Of a stretch of 37,145 bases of DNA, positions 10,679-35,630 are shown one piece after another. Under the pieces are notes generated by a model, which did not search any database, was not told the origin of the DNA, and saw only the letters and a program-made list of their open reading frames with translations. The position numbers and the translations under genes are program-made. The stretch spans positions 1 through 37,145 of the forward strand of contig JAGODF010000003.1 in NCBI GenBank assembly GCA_017998375.1. The letters are read 5' to 3'. Numbering within the stretch: the first letter of the stretch is position 1; each line of letters begins with the position of its first letter. This DNA is from Spirochaetota bacterium. GTDB lineage: Bacteria; Spirochaetota; UBA4802; JAGODF01.

Positions 10679-12310
10679 ATGAGGAGGATGATACGATGTG
10701 CCGGAGCAGTTATGCTTCTTGCCGCAGCGGTGTGCTTCCTTCCCTCGGCGGCGCGGTCCGCGACTATCCACGCGATACTCGTGGGCGACACGGTTGACCC
10801 GAACATCGGCCGGGGCGACAAGCTCGACCTGGACCTGATGACCGGCCTATTGCGGGACGCGTCGAAGCAGACGGGCATGCGGCTCAACATGCGGGTGTTC
10901 GATGACAAGATTATCAGGTCGCAGATCATGAGCGCGGTCCAGGCACTGCGCCCGGAGAGCAACGATACCGTGGTCTTTTTCTACACGGGGCACGGCTACA
11001 GGACGAGCTCCTTCAGGGACAAGTGGCCCGCCTTCGCGCTGAAAAACGAGAGCGGCGGATCGGCGGGGCTCGACCAGAAGTGGGTCTACAACGAGCTGAA
11101 GGACAAGGGAGCGCGGCTCCTCATAGTGATGGCGGACGCCTGCAACAGCGTCGTTCCCGACGGCGCCATCGACACGCGCATGGCGCTTCGCAGCGGGAAG
11201 GAGCTGCCGGAGAGCTATAAAAAGCTCTTTCTCGAGGCCAGGGGCACCATCCTGGCGTCGAGCAGCATTCCCGGGCAGTATTCCTACAGCGGAAGCAACG
11301 GCAGCCAGTTCACCGTCGCGTTCATAGAGTCGGTCAGGAAGGCCCTCGCAGGAACGAATCCTTCCTGGGAGCCGATCATGCGGGAAGCGACGCGCCCGCT
11401 CTACGGCGGGCAGCAGCAGCCGCAGTTCGCGATGAACGACGCGGCAGGCACTCCCGGCGAGGGGGAGCGCGATACGAGCGCCGACGACCGCGGCTCATCT
11501 GAGCCTTCCGGGGGAGGGGAGGATGCGACGCTGGGGCTGGGCAACCTGCTGGTCGAGATGGAGAGCCAGGTGCAGTACAGCGCGCAGTCGTCCCAGTGGC
11601 CGGGAATGCGCGAGCGCTGGATGCAGGGCGCCTACGGAGCCGGAACCAGTGCCGCGAAAATGCGCGACGTGCTCATAGCCTTCGAACAGCACATGAAGCC
11701 GCAGTCGATGAAGGAAGGCTGGAGCGCGAGGAAGGCGTCATGGACCGGTTCCGTGAGGACGGCGTCGAATATCGCCCAGCTGGCGCGGCCCCTCCTCGAC
11801 GTTGAGGCGGCGATATCGGAATCGGCGTTCGGTCCCGCCTGGAGCGGCCAGCGGTCGGGGTGGCAGGCGAGGGTCCGCGGCTTCGGAGGCTCCTCCGGCG
11901 GAGGCGCCGACGAAAGGGAGGATTCCGGCGGCGGTGAATCGCCAGCGGGCGGGGGTGTCTTCGGCGGGCTCCTCATCCGGGTCGAAGAAAGTATGATATC
12001 GTCCGCCATGGAGCAGGCCTGGAGCGGCCGGAAAAGCCAGTGGCAGAACGACGTGAGGAGCGCGGGCGACAGCGTGAACCGCCTGCGGGAACTCATGGTG
12101 ACCTTCGAGACCAACGTGAAGTACGACGCCCAGGAAAGCTACTGGCGGAACAGGAGGGCCGACTGGGTGAGAAGGTCGAATTCGGCGCGGGACATTGACG
12201 AGCTTAAGCGGCTCCTGGTGGAAGTCGAGAGCTCCATCAAGTACTCGGCGCAGGTCGAGTCATGGAGGGAGGAAAGGGCCAACTGGCTGCGGCAGGTCCA
12301 GGGGCAGTAG
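10679..12310 (+). CDS. Secreted caspase-like (C14) protein with six E/W/W repeats
   Basis: 543 residues. A signal peptide (hydrophobic core about 9-22, cleavage near SAARSA) exports it. Residues about 30-230 form a caspase/metacaspase-type domain: the strand VVFFYTGHGY gives His105 and the strand LLIVMADACNS gives Cys155, with the usual spacing for the C14 catalytic dyad. Residues 290-543 hold six copies of a 40-41 residue unit, split after the third by a Gly/Ser/Glu-rich linker (about 403-430). Each unit has invariant Glu6, Trp18 and Trp25. The Shine-Dalgarno GGAGAAAGG precedes the start. Caspase-like domains are Arg/Lys- or Asp-specific proteases or inactive scaffolds; specificity and substrates here are unknown. 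Confidence 0.85.
   Translation: MRRMIRCAGAVMLLAAAVCFLPSAARSATIHAILVGDTVDPNIGRGDKLDLDLMTGLLRDASKQTGMRLNMRVFDDKIIRSQIMSAVQALRPESNDTVVFFYTGHGYRTSSFRDKWPAFALKNESGGSAGLDQKWVYNELKDKGARLLIVMADACNSVVPDGAIDTRMALRSGKELPESYKKLFLEARGTILASSSIPGQYSYSGSNGSQFTVAFIESVRKALAGTNPSWEPIMREATRPLYGGQQQPQFAMNDAAGTPGEGERDTSADDRGSSEPSGGGEDATLGLGNLLVEMESQVQYSAQSSQWPGMRERWMQGAYGAGTSAAKMRDVLIAFEQHMKPQSMKEGWSARKASWTGSVRTASNIAQLARPLLDVEAAISESAFGPAWSGQRSGWQARVRGFGGSSGGGADEREDSGGGESPAGGGVFGGLLIRVEESMISSAMEQAWSGRKSQWQNDVRSAGDSVNRLRELMVTFETNVKYDAQESYWRNRRADWVRRSNSARDIDELKRLLVEVESSIKYSAQVESWREERANWLRQVQGQ
11546..12310 (+). repeat. Six-fold protein repeat encoded in the caspase-like gene
   Basis: Units begin at residues 290, 331, 371, 431, 472 and 512 of the product. 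Typical starts are LLVEMESQ, VLIAFEQH, PLLDVEAA, LLIRVEES, LMVTFETN and LLVEVESS. Every unit carries Glu at position 6 and Trp at positions 18 and 25; units 1, 5 and 6 also share a Y-S/D-A-Q element at 11-14. Units 3 and 6 are shorter (32 residues). The DNA copies are diverged, so this is a protein-level repeat and not a recent tandem duplication. A helical hairpin per unit is my inference. Confidence 0.9.
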
Positions 12311-15782: not shown

Positions 15783-17345
15783 ATGGAAAACAGCAAGCGG
15801 GAGCATTCCCCGGGCTATTACCGGAAGCTTCTCGAGAACGTCAACGAATACATCTACAGCGTGAGGTACGAGAACGGCGTCGCCGTGTCTACCTATCACA
15901 CCCCCGCGTGCCGGAAAATCACCGGCTACACCGTGGACGAGCTGAACGCCGACGGGAACCTCTGGTTCTCGATGGTGCACACCGACGACCGGGACAGGGT
16001 CAACGAGTTCATCGGGAGCACGCTGGGCGATAAAACCGAGGGCTCCATAGAGCACCGCATCATCGACAAGGAGAAGAGAACGCGCTGGGTCTCCAACAAG
16101 ATCGCCGTAGTGCGGGACGCGGCCGGCGCGATCAGGTATGTGAACGGCTTCATCGTCGACATCACCGAAAGAAAGACGGCGGAGGAGGAACTGGTGAAGC
16201 TTTACCGGGCGGTGGAGCAGAGCCCCGCCACGGTAGTCATCACCGACGTGCGGGGCACAATAGAGTACGTGAACCCCAAGTTCACCAGGCTCACGGGATA
16301 CACCTACGCCGAGGCCATCGGGAAGAATCCCCGCATTTTAAAATCGGGCGAGCAGGGCAGGGAGTTTTATCGGGACCTCTGGGATACCATCGCGGCAGGA
16401 AAGGAATGGCGCGGCGAGTTCCACAACAGGAAGAAGAACGGCGAGCTCTACTGGGAGTTCGCGTCCATTTCGCCCATCAGGGACTCGGAAGGCCGCGTGA
16501 CGCATTTCGTGGCGGTGAAGGAGGACGTCACCGAGCGCAAGAGGTCCGAGGAGGCGCTCCGCGTCAGCGAGGAAAAGCTCCGGCTCAGGAACAACGCCAT
16601 GGAGAAGGACCTGAAACTCGCCCAGATCATCAACAGGACCGTCCTGCCGAAGAACCCTCCCGTGACGGAGAGGATCCTCGTCGATTACCGCTACGTGCCG
16701 CTGGACAAGGTGGGCGGCGATTATTTTTCCTTCATGAATGGCGAGGACGGCTCCTTCAGCGTGTTCCTGGGAGACGTGGCGGGCCACGGCATCGCGGCGG
16801 CCCTGTTTATCACTCTGGTCAAATCGGTGAGCGACCGCATCTACCGGGAATTCGGAAATGACCCGGAGCGCTACCTGGGGATGATAAACCGCCTCCTGAT
16901 CGACGAGATGCCCTCATACTTCATCACCGCGGTGTACGGAATTTTCAGGTTCGACGGGGGCCGCGCCACACTGACGCTGGCCAACGGCGGACATCCCCAT
17001 CCGGTAATCTACCGCGCAGGGGAGGGCGCTTTCATCCAGGTAAAAACCTCGGGTACGGTCATTGGGATGATAGATACCGCCGTGTACCGCCGTGAAACGA
17101 TCGACCTGGCCCCGGGGGACCGCGTCTACCTGTTCACGGACGGGATCCCCGAGGCGGAGAACATGAAAAAGCAGATGATCGGGTTCGACGCGGGGCTCGT
17201 CGATATTTTCAGGAGATCCCACCGCGCGGACCTGGGGGAGACTCTGGACGGAGTTCTTGAGGAAGTGAAAAAATTCACCGGCGCGAAACCGGTAGACGAC
17301 GACATCGTGCTGATCGGGCTCGAGGTGAGGGACCGGCGGACATGA
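15783..17345 (+). CDS. PAS-PAS-PP2C serine phosphatase (SpoIIE/RsbU type)
   Basis: 520 residues, no membrane segment. Two PAS domains (about 10-130 and 135-255, each ending in a D-x-TERK motif), a short coiled linker with the LRLRNNAMEKDLKLAQ helix, then a PP2C_SIG/SpoIIE phosphatase domain from about 285. Metal-site acids are visible in VGGDYF, GDVAGHG, YLFTDGIPEA and VDDDIVLIG. Proteins of this design dephosphorylate anti-anti-sigma (STAS) proteins in partner-switching pathways, with the PAS domains sensing a small ligand or redox state. The STAS proteins at 33-35 kb are possible partners, but this is inference. The stop overlaps the start of the DHH gene (ATGA), a sign of translational coupling. 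Confidence 0.93.
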   Translation: MENSKREHSPGYYRKLLENVNEYIYSVRYENGVAVSTYHTPACRKITGYTVDELNADGNLWFSMVHTDDRDRVNEFIGSTLGDKTEGSIEHRIIDKEKRTRWVSNKIAVVRDAAGAIRYVNGFIVDITERKTAEEELVKLYRAVEQSPATVVITDVRGTIEYVNPKFTRLTGYTYAEAIGKNPRILKSGEQGREFYRDLWDTIAAGKEWRGEFHNRKKNGELYWEFASISPIRDSEGRVTHFVAVKEDVTERKRSEEALRVSEEKLRLRNNAMEKDLKLAQIINRTVLPKNPPVTERILVDYRYVPLDKVGGDYFSFMNGEDGSFSVFLGDVAGHGIAAALFITLVKSVSDRIYREFGNDPERYLGMINRLLIDEMPSYFITAVYGIFRFDGGRATLTLANGGHPHPVIYRAGEGAFIQVKTSGTVIGMIDTAVYRRETIDLAPGDRVYLFTDGIPEAENMKKQMIGFDAGLVDIFRRSHRADLGETLDGVLEEVKKFTGAKPVDDDIVLIGLEVRDRRT

Positions 17346-30486: not shown

Positions 30487-31374
30487 TTACAGAATTTTAA
30501 ACTCATTCATGATGTTGAGCAGGCGTTCCCTTTTAATCTCCGACGTCCCGTTGCTGAAAACTATCCGCATGAAATAACCCCTGGTGCCGTTGTAAAAATA
30601 GCCCTCGTACCCTGAAAAAGGAGGCGCCAGGCTGTTTTCGATCGCATACACGAGCAACTTCCTTTCGGAGCGAATTTCCCTGCGCTGGTAGATGTCTTTG
30701 CCCAGGGTGATTTCCCAGTGTAGTTTCAGCTCCGCCGTGGATGATATGACCGATTGAAACTCCTCGCTGTCGAGGGCCAGGAGCGCGTCGAATCGTTCCG
30801 GCCGGGCGGAGCGCTCCCGGTTGAATGAAAGTCCCGCGAGGAGGCCATGGTACATGTAACGATGTTTCTTTCTGTGTGAAGAGTTTAAAATCGTGATTTC
30901 AAACGGTGTTTTCATCCGGTAGCGGCTGATCTGGTTTTCCATTGTGATGAAGTCACCGTCACGGTAGAGAATAAGTGGCGATTTCTCGATGTGGCGGGTA
31001 TATCTGGATCCCTCCCGCTTTTTCAGCCTGTTTACCTCGCTGGCGGCACGCGACTGTGCCTTGTATATCCGGTTGTTCGTCATGGGCATGGCGAGAATCG
31101 AATTTAAGATGGCCAGGCCTTCGGGAATATAGTGGTTTTTTACCAGTTCCAGCCCCTGCGAAAGATAATAATCAATTCCGGCAAGCGAAACGGGTTTGTG
31201 TTTGTACTCCGGAGTGCCGGAAGTCCATATTTTGCCCCTGGTGTCGATATAATACCTGTTGCCATCGTGATCCCTGGTGAGAACCCAGCCGGGCAGCTGG
31301 GCATGAAGATGACAGGGTAATAAAATAAAGGTGAAAAAAATTGCTGAAAAAATTTTTGTTAAATTGTGATCCAT
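30487..31374 (-). CDS. Secreted protein of unknown function
   Basis: 295 residues. A clear signal peptide (IFSAIFFTFILLPCHLHAQ) places it outside the cytoplasm. After it comes a distinctive GWVLTRDHDGNRYYIDTRGK segment (probably two strands), an alpha-helical section around 80-130, and a basic beta-rich C-terminal domain (KLHWEITLGKDIYQRREIR, YEGYFYNGTRGYFMRIVFS). I do not recognise a family. Base composition is more AT-rich than the genes to the left. It converges on the SPOR gene and diverges from the Fis-type gene. Confidence 0.72.
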   Translation of the reverse strand: MDHNLTKIFSAIFFTFILLPCHLHAQLPGWVLTRDHDGNRYYIDTRGKIWTSGTPEYKHKPVSLAGIDYYLSQGLELVKNHYIPEGLAILNSILAMPMTNNRIYKAQSRAASEVNRLKKREGSRYTRHIEKSPLILYRDGDFITMENQISRYRMKTPFEITILNSSHRKKHRYMYHGLLAGLSFNRERSARPERFDALLALDSEEFQSVISSTAELKLHWEITLGKDIYQRREIRSERKLLVYAIENSLAPPFSGYEGYFYNGTRGYFMRIVFSNGTSEIKRERLLNIMNEFKIL

Positions 31375-31578: not shown

Positions 31579-31815
31579 ATGTTAAATCAAAAGGAAAGGA
31601 GTGCATCAATGAATGCCCACGCGAGAGGAAGGAAAAAAGCCGTAAAACTCCCCGATGATTATGAAACCCTTGATAAGGTCGTGGAAAGAGTCGAGAAGGA
31701 ATATATTGTGAAGACTCTTGAGCTGACCAACTGGAACCTTCAGAAAACAAGCCGGGTGCTCGATATAGCGCGCAATACACTGAAAGCCAAGATCAAGAAA
31801 TACGGCATACAATAA
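31579..31815 (+). CDS. Stand-alone Fis-type helix-turn-helix protein
   Basis: 78 residues from ATG 31579, or 68 from ATG 31609. Both starts have an AAGGAG seven bases upstream, so both may be used. Residues about 30-78 are the C-terminal Fis/NtrC DNA-binding module: EKEYIVKTLELTNWNLQKTS, then VLDIARNTLKAKIKKYGIQ as the recognition helix. There is no AAA+ or receiver domain, so it is a minimal DNA-binding or nucleoid-type protein. The region 31375-31578 upstream is very AT-rich and contains the palindrome ACATATGT (31491-31498); no convincing promoter was found. It converges on the tail-anchored protein gene. Confidence 0.85.
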   Translation: MLNQKERSASMNAHARGRKKAVKLPDDYETLDKVVERVEKEYIVKTLELTNWNLQKTSRVLDIARNTLKAKIKKYGIQ

Positions 31816-31836: not shown

Positions 31837-32886
31837 TTATTGTATCAGTAATACTATAACCATCAGTGCGATGAACAGGGCAGCTATCAACACCGCTATG
31901 TAAAGCATGGTCTGGCTGTCGGTTTCTTTGACGGCCTCGGCTCGGGGGGTGCTGTCCATCTCAATCTTGACGTTTTCCTCCTCCACCACGCGGGCGAGGA
32001 TGTTTTTCGCAACCACACCGTAAATCATGAATCCCCCTTCCGTAAGGGGGATTTTTGCTTTTACCCTTGCCTTCACCGGAAGCCATTCCCCTTCGGTTGT
32101 GACGGCTTTCTGGGCAGATGCGACCTTTTCTGATATCGTATCGTTTTTATCCGTGAGTAGTATCCGTATTTTATCACCCTGCTGGATGTCATTGATGTAC
32201 TTCCCTTTCACGGGTGATACTATCACCCTGCCGGTAATGACGTGCTCGGCGTCCTTTTCTATCTGGGTGATAAGGCTCTCGGGTTCGGACGGGGATGTTT
32301 CCGAGGGCGCCGCAACCCTTGCCGACGAGGGCTCTTCCAAAGGAATTCCCGCAAGTTCAAGGTTGAGCGAACTTGTTCTTTCAAAATCTATCTGGCACTG
32401 GGCCTCGTCCCTGTTGTAGTATTTTTCGATGATTTCCCGAAGGATATCCGTCACGGCTTCGATGTTGTTCTCTGCCACGTAATTGAATACACCGTAACCG
32501 TTGAGGGATGCGATCAGGTGCTGAGTGAATTCATAGGAACTGCCGGCCGTCTTGCTCGTTTCGGCTTCCTCGTTGACGACCTCCTTGAACTTCGAGTAAA
32601 AGAACTTCCAGCCGTCGTTGATTGATATCTTGTCGTTCAGGGATTTGCTCGGCGTGAGCAGGGAATTGAGATTCATGATATAGTTGTTTGCGAGGTTGAA
32701 AAAAACCAGGAATACGCCGTACGTATGGCCTCCAACGGAAAACCGACCCTTGGTTATGGCCACGTCGTTCAACTGGCCGTTGACCATCTGCTTGGCTTTT
32801 TCCATGTCCCCGCCTGTGTATTTCAGCGCGATTTTAATGAGGCGGGTGGTTTCGTTCAGCGCGTTAAATTGATTCGTTTCAGCCAT
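31837..32886 (-). CDS. Tail-anchored membrane protein of unknown function, last gene of the STAS-ATPase cassette
   Basis: 349 residues from ATG 32886, which has AAGGGG at good spacing; a GTG two codons earlier overlaps the upstream stop and is an alternative. Three parts are visible: an N-terminal helical domain (about 1-165, starting AETNQFNALNETTRLIKI), a Pro/Ser-rich linker (about 180-210), and a beta-rich domain (about 215-315, ITGRVIVSPVKGKYINDIQ and QGDKIRILLTDK). A single hydrophobic helix at the very end (MLYIAVLIAALFIALMVIVL) anchors it, leaving nearly all of the protein in the cytoplasm. I do not know the family. Position at the end of the cassette suggests it is the membrane output or sensor. 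Confidence 0.75.
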   Translation of the reverse strand: MAETNQFNALNETTRLIKIALKYTGGDMEKAKQMVNGQLNDVAITKGRFSVGGHTYGVFLVFFNLANNYIMNLNSLLTPSKSLNDKISINDGWKFFYSKFKEVVNEEAETSKTAGSSYEFTQHLIASLNGYGVFNYVAENNIEAVTDILREIIEKYYNRDEAQCQIDFERTSSLNLELAGIPLEEPSSARVAAPSETSPSEPESLITQIEKDAEHVITGRVIVSPVKGKYINDIQQGDKIRILLTDKNDTISEKVASAQKAVTTEGEWLPVKARVKAKIPLTEGGFMIYGVVAKNILARVVEEENVKIEMDSTPRAEAVKETDSQTMLYIAVLIAALFIALMVIVLLIQ

Positions 32887-32888
32887 GT

Positions 32889-33470
32889 TCACCCCTTGGA
32901 AGCGTCAACGATGAATTTTTCGAGAATTTCGTATTTTTTCTGGGGCGGCAGGTTTATGAGTTTTTTTAAACCGCTGATAATCGACTGCCTGTACTTGAGG
33001 GAGGTTTCCAGGATGAAGAAGCCGTCCTTGTCCAGGTTGTTTATGATTGTTACCTTGTTCGTGGGCAGGCGCGATCCGAGAATCGATCCGAAAAACACGA
33101 TCAGATGCTGTGGTGATACGTATTTCACGCTGAGACGGTTTATTCCCATGTCCAGCCGGCTGAGAAGCTTGTAGTCCCTGTAATTGTCCGCCGGGATGTT
33201 TCCCCAGTTCTTCGGGTTGTCCGTAACCTGTATGACGATGCGGTCTTGTTCCTCTGAAACGAGCACCCGGAAATAGGTATTGTAGATTTTGTATGACGAC
33301 AGCAGGCCGAAAAGGCTGTCATTGTCATGGGCCGCGGCGTCCTTCCCTTTTCTGTAAGTTTGTTTTAATGCCATGTATCTGCGCACCTGCCGCGAGGCAG
33401 TGAAACACGTAATGATTTTTTTATCAAGTATGATTTTGCCCGGGTTACGGCATGCCGCGCTGCGTTTCAC
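32889..33470 (-). CDS. Protein of unknown function in the STAS-ATPase cassette
   Basis: 193 residues from a GTG at 33470 that overlaps the upstream stop by four bases (GTGA), suggesting coupling. An ATG at 33374 with AGGTG nearby would give 161 residues. No signal peptide or membrane helix. The middle (YNTYFRVLVSEEQDRIVIQV, VKYVSPQHLIVFFGSI) is strand-rich, and the C-terminus (SIISGLKKLINLPPQKKYEI) is helical. No family recognised. It is followed two bases later by the tail-anchored protein. Confidence 0.68.
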   Translation of the reverse strand: MKRSAACRNPGKIILDKKIITCFTASRQVRRYMALKQTYRKGKDAAAHDNDSLFGLLSSYKIYNTYFRVLVSEEQDRIVIQVTDNPKNWGNIPADNYRDYKLLSRLDMGINRLSVKYVSPQHLIVFFGSILGSRLPTNKVTIINNLDKDGFFILETSLKYRQSIISGLKKLINLPPQKKYEILEKFIVDASKG

Positions 33471-34066
33471 AGTGAATGATACAATAGTACGGAATCATGG
33501 TCGATTTTTCTGATAATTCTCATGCGGTACATCCTTTCGAGCATGGCGAGGGCGTCTTCGTGGCTCATCTCCAGGAATGAGGCGATCTCGGCGGAGGCCG
33601 CGCTCCGGTTTACCCGGAGATAGTTGATAATGTCCCTTTCCTGCGGATTGAGTTCGCCGATGATGTAACTGTTGTGTATCACGCTGTCGGTAACCACCGC
33701 CATGCCTGGCGTGTTCGCGTCGTTGAATGATTTAAAAACCGATGAAATATTCATTACGGCGATGTCGGATATGCCGGCGAGCTTCACGTGGAAGGATGGG
33801 GCGTCTTGCCTTGATTCGGAAATCAGTTTAATTATGAATTCATCGATAAAGGACGGGTCAAGCACCCGGTACCCGGAGAAATCGAGCAGAAGGACTTCCC
33901 CATCGTGGATGTCGGATATCATCCCGCATACTTTGTTGAACAGGCTCTTCCCGAGGGGGCGGGTGATGAGGTCCGGGATCCTGGGTTTCTGGTCGCCGGC
34001 TATTTTGCTTATTTTTATAACCATGGGTATCAGCTTGTTATTAAGTATCGGTGCCGGCGCTCGCAT
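33467..34066 (-). CDS. STAS-like domain (DUF4325-type) plus winged-helix protein
   Basis: 199 residues; ATG 34024 (185 residues) is an alternative start. Residues about 35-130 look like the STAS-like fold: RPLGKSLFNKVCGMISDI, a strand-turn VLLLDFSGYRVLDPSFIDEF and VVTDSVIHN. Residues about 140-199 are a winged-helix module (LNPQERDIINYLRVNRSAAS, EIASFLEMSHEDALAMLERM). STAS-like DUF4325 proteins are known beside HATPase partners, as here; combination with a DNA-binding-type helix suggests transcriptional output, but the winged helix may instead bind protein. Assignment to DUF4325 is by pattern only. Confidence 0.65.
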   Translation of the reverse strand: MRAPAPILNNKLIPMVIKISKIAGDQKPRIPDLITRPLGKSLFNKVCGMISDIHDGEVLLLDFSGYRVLDPSFIDEFIIKLISESRQDAPSFHVKLAGISDIAVMNISSVFKSFNDANTPGMAVVTDSVIHNSYIIGELNPQERDIINYLRVNRSAASAEIASFLEMSHEDALAMLERMYRMRIIRKIDHDSVLLYHSL

Positions 34067-34102
34067 AATTAAGCTGTTCTTTCCCGTTGCGGCCGCGGGG
34101 AT

Positions 34103-34993
34103 TCAGCCTGTAAGGGATATCGATATCTGCGTGCCGGGGAACGGGGCGAGGTCGTTCATCAGGAAGGAGTGCGATACGGTCCCCTGCTTTTTGTTATGCA
34201 TGATGGAAACAGAGGCATTGGATGACCTGATGAAAACGGTCCCCTTCAATCTTTCGACGATGGAGTTCACCTGGTTGAGACCGTAGCCGAAGTCCCTTTT
34301 GCTGGAAATCGTCGTGGTTATAGCCAGCTCGATGAGCTGGGCCGGAGACCGGTACGTGATGGCGGGCTTCGACGCGAAGCTTTCCTGTATCCCGATGCCG
34401 GAATCCGCTATCACGAGCCTGGCGACCTGCTGTTTGCCGAATGAGTATGTCTGCATGGAAAGATAGCCCGAATCCAGGCTGTGTTCGTAGATGTTCTGGC
34501 AGAGCTCGGAAATCACTGTCACGAAATAATCGACAATTGTATCATTGATCCAGGGTTTCAGTATGTGACGGGCCCTCTTCCTGAAAAGCGATATGACCCC
34601 GGTTATCGCCCTGATGCTCTCCCTTTCCTTGTTGGGAATATCGGTTATCTCGATGAGGCTCCTGCTCTGGGAGCTGCGCTTCAGGAAAAAGCGCTCATCA
34701 AGCTTGTCCTTTATGCTGAACACTCCCTTGTTGAAGAAGTCCATACGGTACAGGTACTGGTGGATGGCCAGGGGAATGTTTTTCAGCACGAGTTTCCTGC
34801 CGGTATTTCTCAAATAATTGCGTCCCAGGAGGATGAGTCCCACCATGGAATAGGGCTCTATGAACGTGAGGGGAGAGAGGTCCAGGGAGGTGATAGAGCC
34901 GGAGTAGAGGGGTTCCTGGAGGTTCAATATCTCTTCGAAAGTATACGAATCGTTGAAGTTGTTCGGCACAACAAGGGTATCCCTGGATGTCAC
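34103..34993 (-). CDS. STAS-HATPase fusion protein (first gene of the cassette)
   Basis: 296 residues from a GTG at 34993, which has AAAGGTGG at good spacing; GTG 35002 would place that motif within the coding part. Residues 1 to about 95 resemble a STAS domain (ITSLDLSPLTFIEPYSMVGL). Residues about 145-290 are a GHKL/HATPase domain: N-box ELCQNIYEH with Asn167, DSGIGI with Asp197, and GYGLNQV from Gly236. There is no dimerisation-phosphoacceptor helix with a conserved His, so it is not an ordinary sensor kinase; an anti-sigma-type serine kinase or ATP-gated switch is more likely. Having both a STAS and an ATPase in one chain is notable since in RsbW-type systems they are separate proteins. 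Confidence 0.82.
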   Translation of the reverse strand: MTSRDTLVVPNNFNDSYTFEEILNLQEPLYSGSITSLDLSPLTFIEPYSMVGLILLGRNYLRNTGRKLVLKNIPLAIHQYLYRMDFFNKGVFSIKDKLDERFFLKRSSQSRSLIEITDIPNKERESIRAITGVISLFRKRARHILKPWINDTIVDYFVTVISELCQNIYEHSLDSGYLSMQTYSFGKQQVARLVIADSGIGIQESFASKPAITYRSPAQLIELAITTTISSKRDFGYGLNQVNSIVERLKGTVFIRSSNASVSIMHNKKQGTVSHSFLMNDLAPFPGTQISISLTG

Positions 34994-35016
34994 CGTTACC
35001 ACCTTTATTTTAGTGA

Positions 35017-35048: not shown

Positions 35049-35173
35049 AGACCGATAAGAAATTACGGGGCTTTGATTTTTATTTATTTCTTTGTTGACA
35101 AAAAAACGAATATTAATTTTTGTGGTTATCAGTTGTCCTCCTATTTTTTTGACGAACCTCCAAATTTATTCTT

Positions 35174-35200
35174 AAAGGGGATTATATCCCCTTTTTTTTT
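35174..35200 (+). terminator. Strong Rho-independent terminator with no known gene in front
   Basis: A perfect 8-bp stem (35174-35181 with 35187-35194), a five-base loop and a T run to 35200 (nine T) on the plus strand. The nearest genes to the left run on the minus strand, so the terminated transcript must begin in 35003-35173. A TTGACA at 35095-35100 is present, with only weak -10 candidates. Confidence 0.85.
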
Positions 35201-35630
35201 ATCGCCAGGGGCAATGATTCGCCTTCGTCTCCCCTGTAGCACTCATCCTGATATATCCATTCCTCCGATCGGACTTACGAAACCACTCTTGCGAGCATAC
35301 TACAATGGTTTATATACAAATTCAATCAATAAAAATAATTAACAGGCCACTTTTTCAATTTGAGGATAGTTGAGATAACAAGAGCATTCGATGATATTTC
35401 CCAATCAGTGTATCAATGGTTCGATGGAGCATTGCAACTATTTTTATCATGAAAAGAGCGGTTTTTCATGTGAGAATTGGGTGAATGCAGTATCTATATG
35501 GATTGTACAGGTTATGTGCCCATATAATTGTTGACTTATTATCTTATTATGTCTGTGATGAAGTATCTATACCGAGAATATTCGGTCACAGGATGCACAC
35601 AAGGCAAGGGAAAGGATATTTCAGCGGATT
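35201..35630. other. 430-base AT-rich non-coding region before bactofilin
   Basis: No convincing gene on either strand. It holds a perfect 8-bp inverted repeat (35448-35455 CATGAAAA, 35463-35470 TTTTCATG, seven-base loop) without a T run, and a promoter-like pair at 35531-35559. Otherwise nothing is recognised; a regulatory RNA or a decayed gene is possible. Confidence 0.5.
35531..35559 (+). promoter_or_regulatory. Sigma70-like promoter for bactofilin
   Basis: TTGACT (35531-35536) and TGTGAT (35554-35559) are 17 bases apart, about 70 bases before the bactofilin start. Confidence 0.5.

Follow-up and report, generated by a model that had tools for sequence, protein, structure and literature searches.

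A predicted CapKS-like phospho-switch encoded by a non-immune core operon across an order of uncultured Spirochaetota

Gene Organization of the Locus

The window analysed in this study is a stretch of 37,145 nucleotides from a Spirochaetota bacterium (assembly GCA_017998375.1, contig JAGODF010000003.1, positions 1 to 37,145 of the forward strand), the source genome of which is 77% complete. It carries four consecutive genes, here named A, B, C and D, whose first two members are predicted to encode a kinase and its substrate. An earlier interpretation made from the letters alone, hereafter the sequence-only reading, had described a four-gene cassette on the minus strand in AT-richer surroundings. 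All four open reading frames (ORFs) were found at that place, spanning from 34993/35002 down to 31837 on the minus strand, and the GC content of the area is about 0.42–0.53, compared with 0.53–0.67 in most of the window.

Gene A (34103..35002, minus strand) encodes 299 amino acids and starts either at the GTG at 35002 or at an in-frame GTG at 34993, the latter being the start chosen in the sequence-only reading. An N-terminal STAS-like domain is fused to a GHKL (HATPase_c) kinase-type domain (residues 160–262; 34217..34525, minus strand) that carries invariant residues in 23 of 23 members. HATPase_c was detected at 2e-7 in the protein of the window, above the cut-off, and was present in 23/23 homologues. 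The proposed joining of STAS and HATPase in one chain agreed with this match and, for the STAS part, with the full-length alignment to CapK described below.

The product of gene B (33467..34024, minus strand) has a STAS-like (DUF4325) domain at its N-terminus and a winged helix behind it. The conserved start is the ATG at 34024, although the ORF is open to 34066, and 184 amino acids were aligned from 34021. DUF4325, a "STAS-like" family, was recognized in all 23 B members (best 2.4e-9), and the B profile aligns with CapS over both domains, which confirms the combination of a STAS-like fold with a winged helix that had been proposed. The codon of the invariant serine S57, in the numbering of the 184-residue stretch, lies at 33851..33853 (minus strand) and is aligned with S54 of CapS.

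Gene C (32889..33374, minus strand) encodes 161 amino acids from its conserved ATG; the product is an alpha+beta protein of unknown family with the C-terminal motif PxKKYE..E. Gene D (31837..32886, minus strand) encodes 349 amino acids, comprising an N-terminal alpha/beta region, an SH3/eIF5A-like beta domain (residues 223–316) and a C-terminal membrane anchor, and is a distant relative of the LIC10486 family. The anchor had been predicted before and was found again as a helix of residues 324–348 in the structure model (31843..31917, minus strand), which is hydrophobic in sequence. The spacing of the genes was described correctly in part. With the ATG at 32886 as the start of D, the gap of two bases between C and D stands, but for B and C to overlap by GTGA, C would have to begin at a GTG that makes it 32 residues longer. 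Since the orthologues of C begin near the ATG at 33374, B and C are separated by 92 bp (33375..33466, minus strand) and do not overlap.

Relationship of A and B to CapK and CapS

Chambers et al. (EMBO J 2026, PMC13373217) describe CapK as an HTH-STAS-GHKL protein (HTH, helix-turn-helix) which, upon binding single-stranded DNA (ssDNA), phosphorylates CapS, a STAS-winged HTH (STAS-wHTH) protein, at S54, the demonstrated phospho-acceptor. The phosphorylated CapS leaves the DNA, and the downstream immune operon is opened. The same paper reports that VapK-VapS acts likewise on the VapC toxin, and that 348 of 443 capKS loci are located upstream of an immune operon. Among the papers listed by our literature search, a single one combined CapK, CapS and STAS, and none linked partner switching with spirochaetes in a relevant way.

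As the CapK/CapS reference we used five plasmid-borne capKS pairs, including one with the CapS accession given in PMC13373217. In the comparison by hhalign, A matched the five CapK proteins with a probability of 98.5 (E value 1.8e-15) over 268 columns, and B matched the CapS profile with a probability of 96.9 (E value 2e-10) over 147 columns extending across both domains. Among the solved structures, the B profile matched VapS (E value 1.2e-4) and, weakly, two solved CapS. The sequence-only reading had related the pair to RsbW-type partner switching, and this kinship was not supported by the controls: three RsbW-like proteins of the same genome matched A with a probability of only 7.8 (E value 0.0045) over 103 columns covering part of the GHKL domain, and an RsbV-like protein of the same genome gave no alignment with B (probability 0.3). 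The logic of a GHKL serine kinase and a STAS serine substrate is shared with RsbW/SpoIIAB and RsbV/SpoIIAA, but these are separate single-domain proteins, and there is no sigma factor in the A-D unit. On this profile evidence, A and B are predicted to be a kinase–substrate pair of the CapK/CapS (and VapK/VapS) kind rather than an ordinary RsbW/RsbV pair.

The nearest plasmid relative of A is BAY80308 of Nostoc linckia NIES-25, with 31% identity over 97% (2e-30) and an E value of 1.3e-36 in a full-length profile comparison. The gene after it, BAY80307, encodes a STAS-wHTH homologue of B (BLASTP 1e-13), whose wing is nearer to that of CapS, with K151 and one G kept. This plasmid locus (L104:5998-11032) consists of the STAS-GHKL gene, the STAS-wHTH gene, a gene for a 377-residue protein without a Pfam match and an E2-E1-JAB (Bub-like) fusion gene. 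The Bub-like E2-E1-JAB setting is where capKS was first found, and the Nostoc locus is likely a capKS-Bub locus outside Pseudomonadota.

The residues expected of a kinase are kept in A. E166, N170, H174, D200, G202, G204, G239 and G241 were invariant in 23/23 members; E166, N170 and H174 align with E214, N218 and H222 of CapK, and the catalytic residues, including the DxGxG and the GxGxG-type box, were identical in all 15 rows compared. In B, position 57 was serine in 23/23 members, and the position aligned with CapS S54 was serine in 14/14 rows of the mixed alignment. The conservation of the kinase residues together with S57 supports the predicted phosphorylation of B by A. The gene order, in which a STAS-GHKL gene is directly followed by a STAS-wHTH gene and then by an operon, and the length of the S-protein (about 184 residues) are also those of CapK and CapS.

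Other features differ. The first 50–60 residues of CapK, which hold its N-terminal HTH, have no counterpart in A, which begins at the STAS part; in this A resembles VapK, a kinase that likewise lacks the HTH. The ssDNA-stacking W68 of CapK is replaced in this alignment-based comparison, in which F54 of VapK could not be placed, by F in 8, C in 10 and L in 5 of the 23 A members, and by L in the Nostoc relative and C in Alicyclobacillus. Because W68 is not kept, the signal may be something other than ssDNA. Nor does B retain the residues through which CapS contacts DNA: among eight rows, N145 was found in 0/8, K151 in 1/8 and G169 in 0/8, and G170 was aligned to G in 3/8. The recognition helix of B carries a negative charge in 18 of 23 members, no charge in 2 and a positive charge in 3. 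A DNA-facing end of the system, as put forward in the sequence-only reading, is therefore doubtful and probably wrong; the missing contacts and the mostly acidic helix make protein binding likelier than promoter repression. The genes downstream of A-B are not immune genes, and the unit is a core, single-copy and order-wide one, unlike the scattered capKS loci. As several defining features of CapK/CapS are absent, we did not file the unit under this name, although A and B could work like them. VapS, whose substrate role through protein binding is what we propose for B, differs from B in having no winged helix.

Conservation and Inheritance of the Unit

We searched 247 Spirochaetota genomes with a profile for each protein; 46 of these genomes belong to the order of the window and 201 lie outside it. 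Within the order, A and B were present in the same 38 genomes, C in 41, a D orthologue in 42 and the downstream gene E in 41. Outside the order, the search returned one weak match for A, two matches for B, none for C and two for E. According to the coordinates, A and B were adjacent in 38/38 cases, B and C in 38/38 and C and D in 41/41. Genomes known by coordinates only (e.g., G150, G183 and G204) were counted for this linkage and not for residues, and the truncated D of genome G178 (L046) was left out of the alignments, which had 23–26 members. The gene-neighbourhood test, set beforehand, found the four genes together, in the order A-B-C-D, in 38/38 genomes having A, in agreement with the co-occurrence that had been expected. 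The A-B-C-D set is a tightly conserved unit, kept across the whole order of uncultured spirochaetes.

The flanks of the unit vary by family. Upstream of A there is a 544-residue ORF in one family, the C-terminus of which was read as GroEL-type, and a bactofilin gene in others. A scan of genome contigs with A gave 32 loci, of which 30 are labelled as Spirochaetota, Spirochaetes or Spirochaetia metagenome-assembled genomes (MAGs), one as "uncultured bacterium" and one as Planctomycetota; the order members among them are uncultured MAGs.

Family f6, represented by three genomes that are 90–96% complete, keeps C-D-E and has neither A nor B. The D tree places f6 in a nested position next to families that bear A and B, with a support of 0.87 with f7 and of 0.79 with f1 added, the deeper nodes being weak. 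Given this nesting, a single joint loss of A and B is the simplest account, and a loss of A-B with C-D-E retained is what would be expected if A-B regulate C-D. Each of the families f1, f2, f4 and f5 formed a monophyletic group in the trees of A, B and C; this did not hold for f3 in the B and C trees, nor for f6 in the C tree. The pattern of the trees and the loss in f6 fit a vertical inheritance in which the regulator pair was probably lost together. Besides f6, five genomes of the order have no A, B or C. Four of them are 69–77% complete and the fifth is 89% complete; with such completeness, and with the G178 contig ending inside D, absence in these genomes means little.

A second, solitary copy of C, without A, B and D, was observed in genome G143 (L150:6058-6603), and the start of the adjoining gene was read as UvrA-like.

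Structure and Relatives of C, D and E

The model of C (pLDDT, the predicted local distance difference test, 86) is confident and had no clear counterpart in the PDB: no Foldseek match was below 1e-3, and the best VIA match had a Z of 5.2 (72 residues, an aspartokinase). The match of the D model (pLDDT 87) was confined to residues 223–316, which are SH3/eIF5A/Tudor-like (Z 7.1). We claim no fold name for C or for the N-terminal part of D, which were searched within the whole chains. No PIN nuclease such as that of VapC was matched by Pfam in C or D at E values up to 1, a difference from VapK-VapS-VapC, and no PADLOC model matched A, B, C, D or E.

All 26 D orthologues matched the LIC10486 family (NF047678) of Leptospira over the full length, with a best value of 2.2e-21. 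D of the window scored 37.5 bits, far below the curated cut-off of 500 bits, and is only a distant relative. LIC10486 of Leptospira is given as a hypothetical protein in the literature.

Of the 19 genomes outside the order with listed positions for both genes, 5 have a distant D homologue directly upstream of fliA; the same arrangement was read at L064 and L066. In the order of the window, the run of flhF, flhG, a transmembrane (TM) gene and fliA had no D in 5/5 loci read. The fliA and CheY-like neighbours of D-type genes give a weak hint that these proteins may serve signalling or motility.

The D-like gene of other spirochaete lineages was seen between an unknown membrane gene and fliA (L153-L157; L064, L066, L069), and, in the order of the window, a second D paralogue directly follows a single-domain CheY-like receiver (L058:7151-8851, L059:7446-8989).

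Gene E (30487..31374, minus strand) follows the unit and encodes 295 amino acids; the product is predicted to be exported, with a signal peptide read from the sequence. The distance between D and E was below 1 kb in 33 of 41 genomes, and elsewhere E adjoins SPOR/RluB genes. Because E stays with these genes even where A-D are located elsewhere, we treated it as associated with the unit and not as part of its core. A gene for a 78-residue Fis-type HTH protein is located between D and E on the opposite strand (31579-31815, plus strand); its homologues adjoin D in the f1, f2 and f4 loci and not in the f3 loci.

Intergenic and Upstream Sequences

The gaps between A and B are mostly 1–20 bp. The gap between B and C is about 90 bp in several families and mostly short in f3 (5–50 bp, with one of 484 bp). 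In the B-C gap of L035 and L036 we found a sigma70-like promoter, TTGATA-N16-TATAAT, equalled by 1 of 300 shuffles, and in that of L034 and L040 an inverted repeat, TTTTGTC-N10-GACAAAA; among the 12 gaps with a usable length, only these 2 contain the repeat. Neither element is clear in the copy of the window.

Upstream of A, [CT]CGAT occurred within 220 bases in 24 of 32 regions, and a promoter-like motif, TT(A/C)A-N16/17-CCGATAAT, was derived from L074-L100. Its form in family f3, TTCAG..CCGATYAT, is nearly specific to A among the intergenic sites; the copy of the window itself is weak. The motif resembles the sigma28 consensus. Upstream regions of flagellin genes scored above those of control genes (29 vs 95, Mann-Whitney p 8e-5), but the best motif sites in them were unconvincing, and SPOR genes accounted for two of the top control hits. 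In eight genomes of one family, the A-type pattern matched 27 sites, of which 20 fall inside ORFs and 7 are intergenic; 4 of the latter lie upstream of A, and none of the other 3 precedes an evident flagellar gene. We therefore dropped a sigma28/motility regulon as an explanation of the motif and do not claim one.

A possible small RNA is located between A and the bactofilin gene (35130-35205, plus strand), transcribed away from A. It contains two C-rich stretches (UCCUCCU and ACCUCC), and its hairpin, AAGGGGAUUAUAUCCCCUUUUUUUUU, resembles a terminator. The whole stretch had a fold z-score of only -1.4. It had no Rfam match, and the RNA family search gave nothing above the gathering score. Other families (L033/L073, L042, L094) also have this element ahead of A, with a hairpin that is changed and still paired.

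Proposed Function and Alternative Explanations

Our best reading of these data is that this core operon, kept across the order and made up of non-immune genes, encodes a phospho-switch similar to CapKS. We estimate an even chance (about 0.5) that A and B are a pair of the CapK/CapS kind, vertically inherited in one order and hard-wired to C-D, in which the state of S57 would decide whether B retains or frees C or D. In this mechanism, A would sense a ligand at or near its own STAS domain, and the GHKL domain of the activated A would phosphorylate S57 in the STAS domain of B. The phosphorylation would change the binding state of B, in a B-B dimer or with a partner, and the proteins bound by B would be C, D or both, at the inner face of the membrane. 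To this extent the earlier idea of a kinase/STAS phospho-switch forming one unit with a membrane-anchored end is supported; C and D, which the sequence-only reading proposed as its sensor and output, may have such roles. A further step, which we put forward only tentatively, is that the unit could be an order-wide housekeeping version of CapK/CapS, whose winged helix has turned from a DNA reader into a protein-binding head that steers the tail-anchored protein. A tie to the flagellum is conceivable in this version, because D-like genes adjoin fliA in other spirochaetes.

Several observations weigh against the proposed switch. The STAS fold of A is based on profile kinship, with Pfam giving a hint of STAS in only 3 of 23 members (best 0.007-0.009). 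Many winged-helix repressors contact DNA through residues other than those of CapS. In f6, which has no A-B, C and D kept 19 of 23 and 31 of 41 conserved positions, which is within the range of the control groups; without a clear loss, no contact site for A or B shows on C or D. Finally, the promoter-like sequence and the inverted repeat in some B-C gaps favour a transcriptional output.

Such an output is the core of the strongest alternative, that B binds DNA to repress its own operon (C-D, possibly E) and is released by phosphorylation through A, as in the CapKS systems proper. The gene order is that of the 443 capKS loci, the STAS-wHTH architecture, the length of 184 residues and the phospho-serine are all kept, several families have B-C gaps of about 90 bp that in part contain the promoter (L035/L036) or the inverted repeat (L034/L040), and there is a promoter-like motif upstream of A. 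CapS loci have palindromic operators in the K-S gap and in the gap between S and the operon. On the other hand, the inverted repeat is present in few of the B-C gaps, and the mostly short B-C gaps of f3 leave little room for a promoter. N145, K151 and the GG wing of CapS are not conserved in B, and its recognition helix is mostly acidic. We regard this alternative as possible but doubtful.

An anti-sigma switch is improbable. A would then be a GHKL anti-sigma factor, perhaps for FliA, with B as its antagonist and D as a motility protein relocated from the fliA operon. The distant D homologues upstream of fliA (5/19 genomes; L064, L066), the empty fliA slot of the order (5/5 loci) and the presence of FliA in 20/20 relatives would suit such a move. 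However, A is far from the RsbW-like anti-sigma factors and has a STAS domain of its own, and its promoter motif is not common to a motility regulon (7 of 27 pattern hits are intergenic, 4 of them upstream of A).

It is similarly improbable that A is a GHKL scaffold without kinase function and that the conserved order reflects old synteny only. E illustrates that synteny, in its case with SPOR/RluB, can persist without functional linkage. Against this, the A-B-C-D order stayed while the flanks changed, A and B were lost together, and the glutamate and asparagine of the N-box and the G-boxes are invariant.

An anti-phage system, in which A-B control an undescribed immune effector C-D-E, is the least probable of all. 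In its favour, every characterised relative of the CapK/CapS/VapK group has immune or toxin genes as neighbours, and the Nostoc relative precedes an E2-E1-JAB operon. However, a single copy in 38 of the 46 order genomes, with trees that largely follow the families, is not the pattern of mobile defence genes; f6 retains C-D-E although it has no A-B; no PADLOC model matches A-E; and C and D are not recognisable effectors.

The roles given to CapK/CapS and VapK/VapS in their 2026 description are the control of immune operons and of a toxin. If the CapKS-like, non-immune switch proposed here exists, a vertically inherited, order-wide relative outside immunity would show that the kinase–STAS pair is a general switch that was borrowed by immunity, or that a single lineage domesticated it. 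It would also provide a natural contrast for which parts sense ssDNA and which read DNA, both residue sets being changed here. Moreover, it would give a first handle on C and D, families of unknown function that are widespread in the order, and on the LIC10486 family, which reaches Leptospira.

Other Genes of the Window

The gene at 15783-17345 (plus strand) encodes a PAS-PAS-SpoIIE phosphatase, with the domains given in the sequence-only reading; it is a candidate that may dephosphorylate B. The product of another gene, at 10679-12310 (plus strand), has a probable signal peptide and a caspase domain (Peptidase_C14), followed by repeated W-rich segments.

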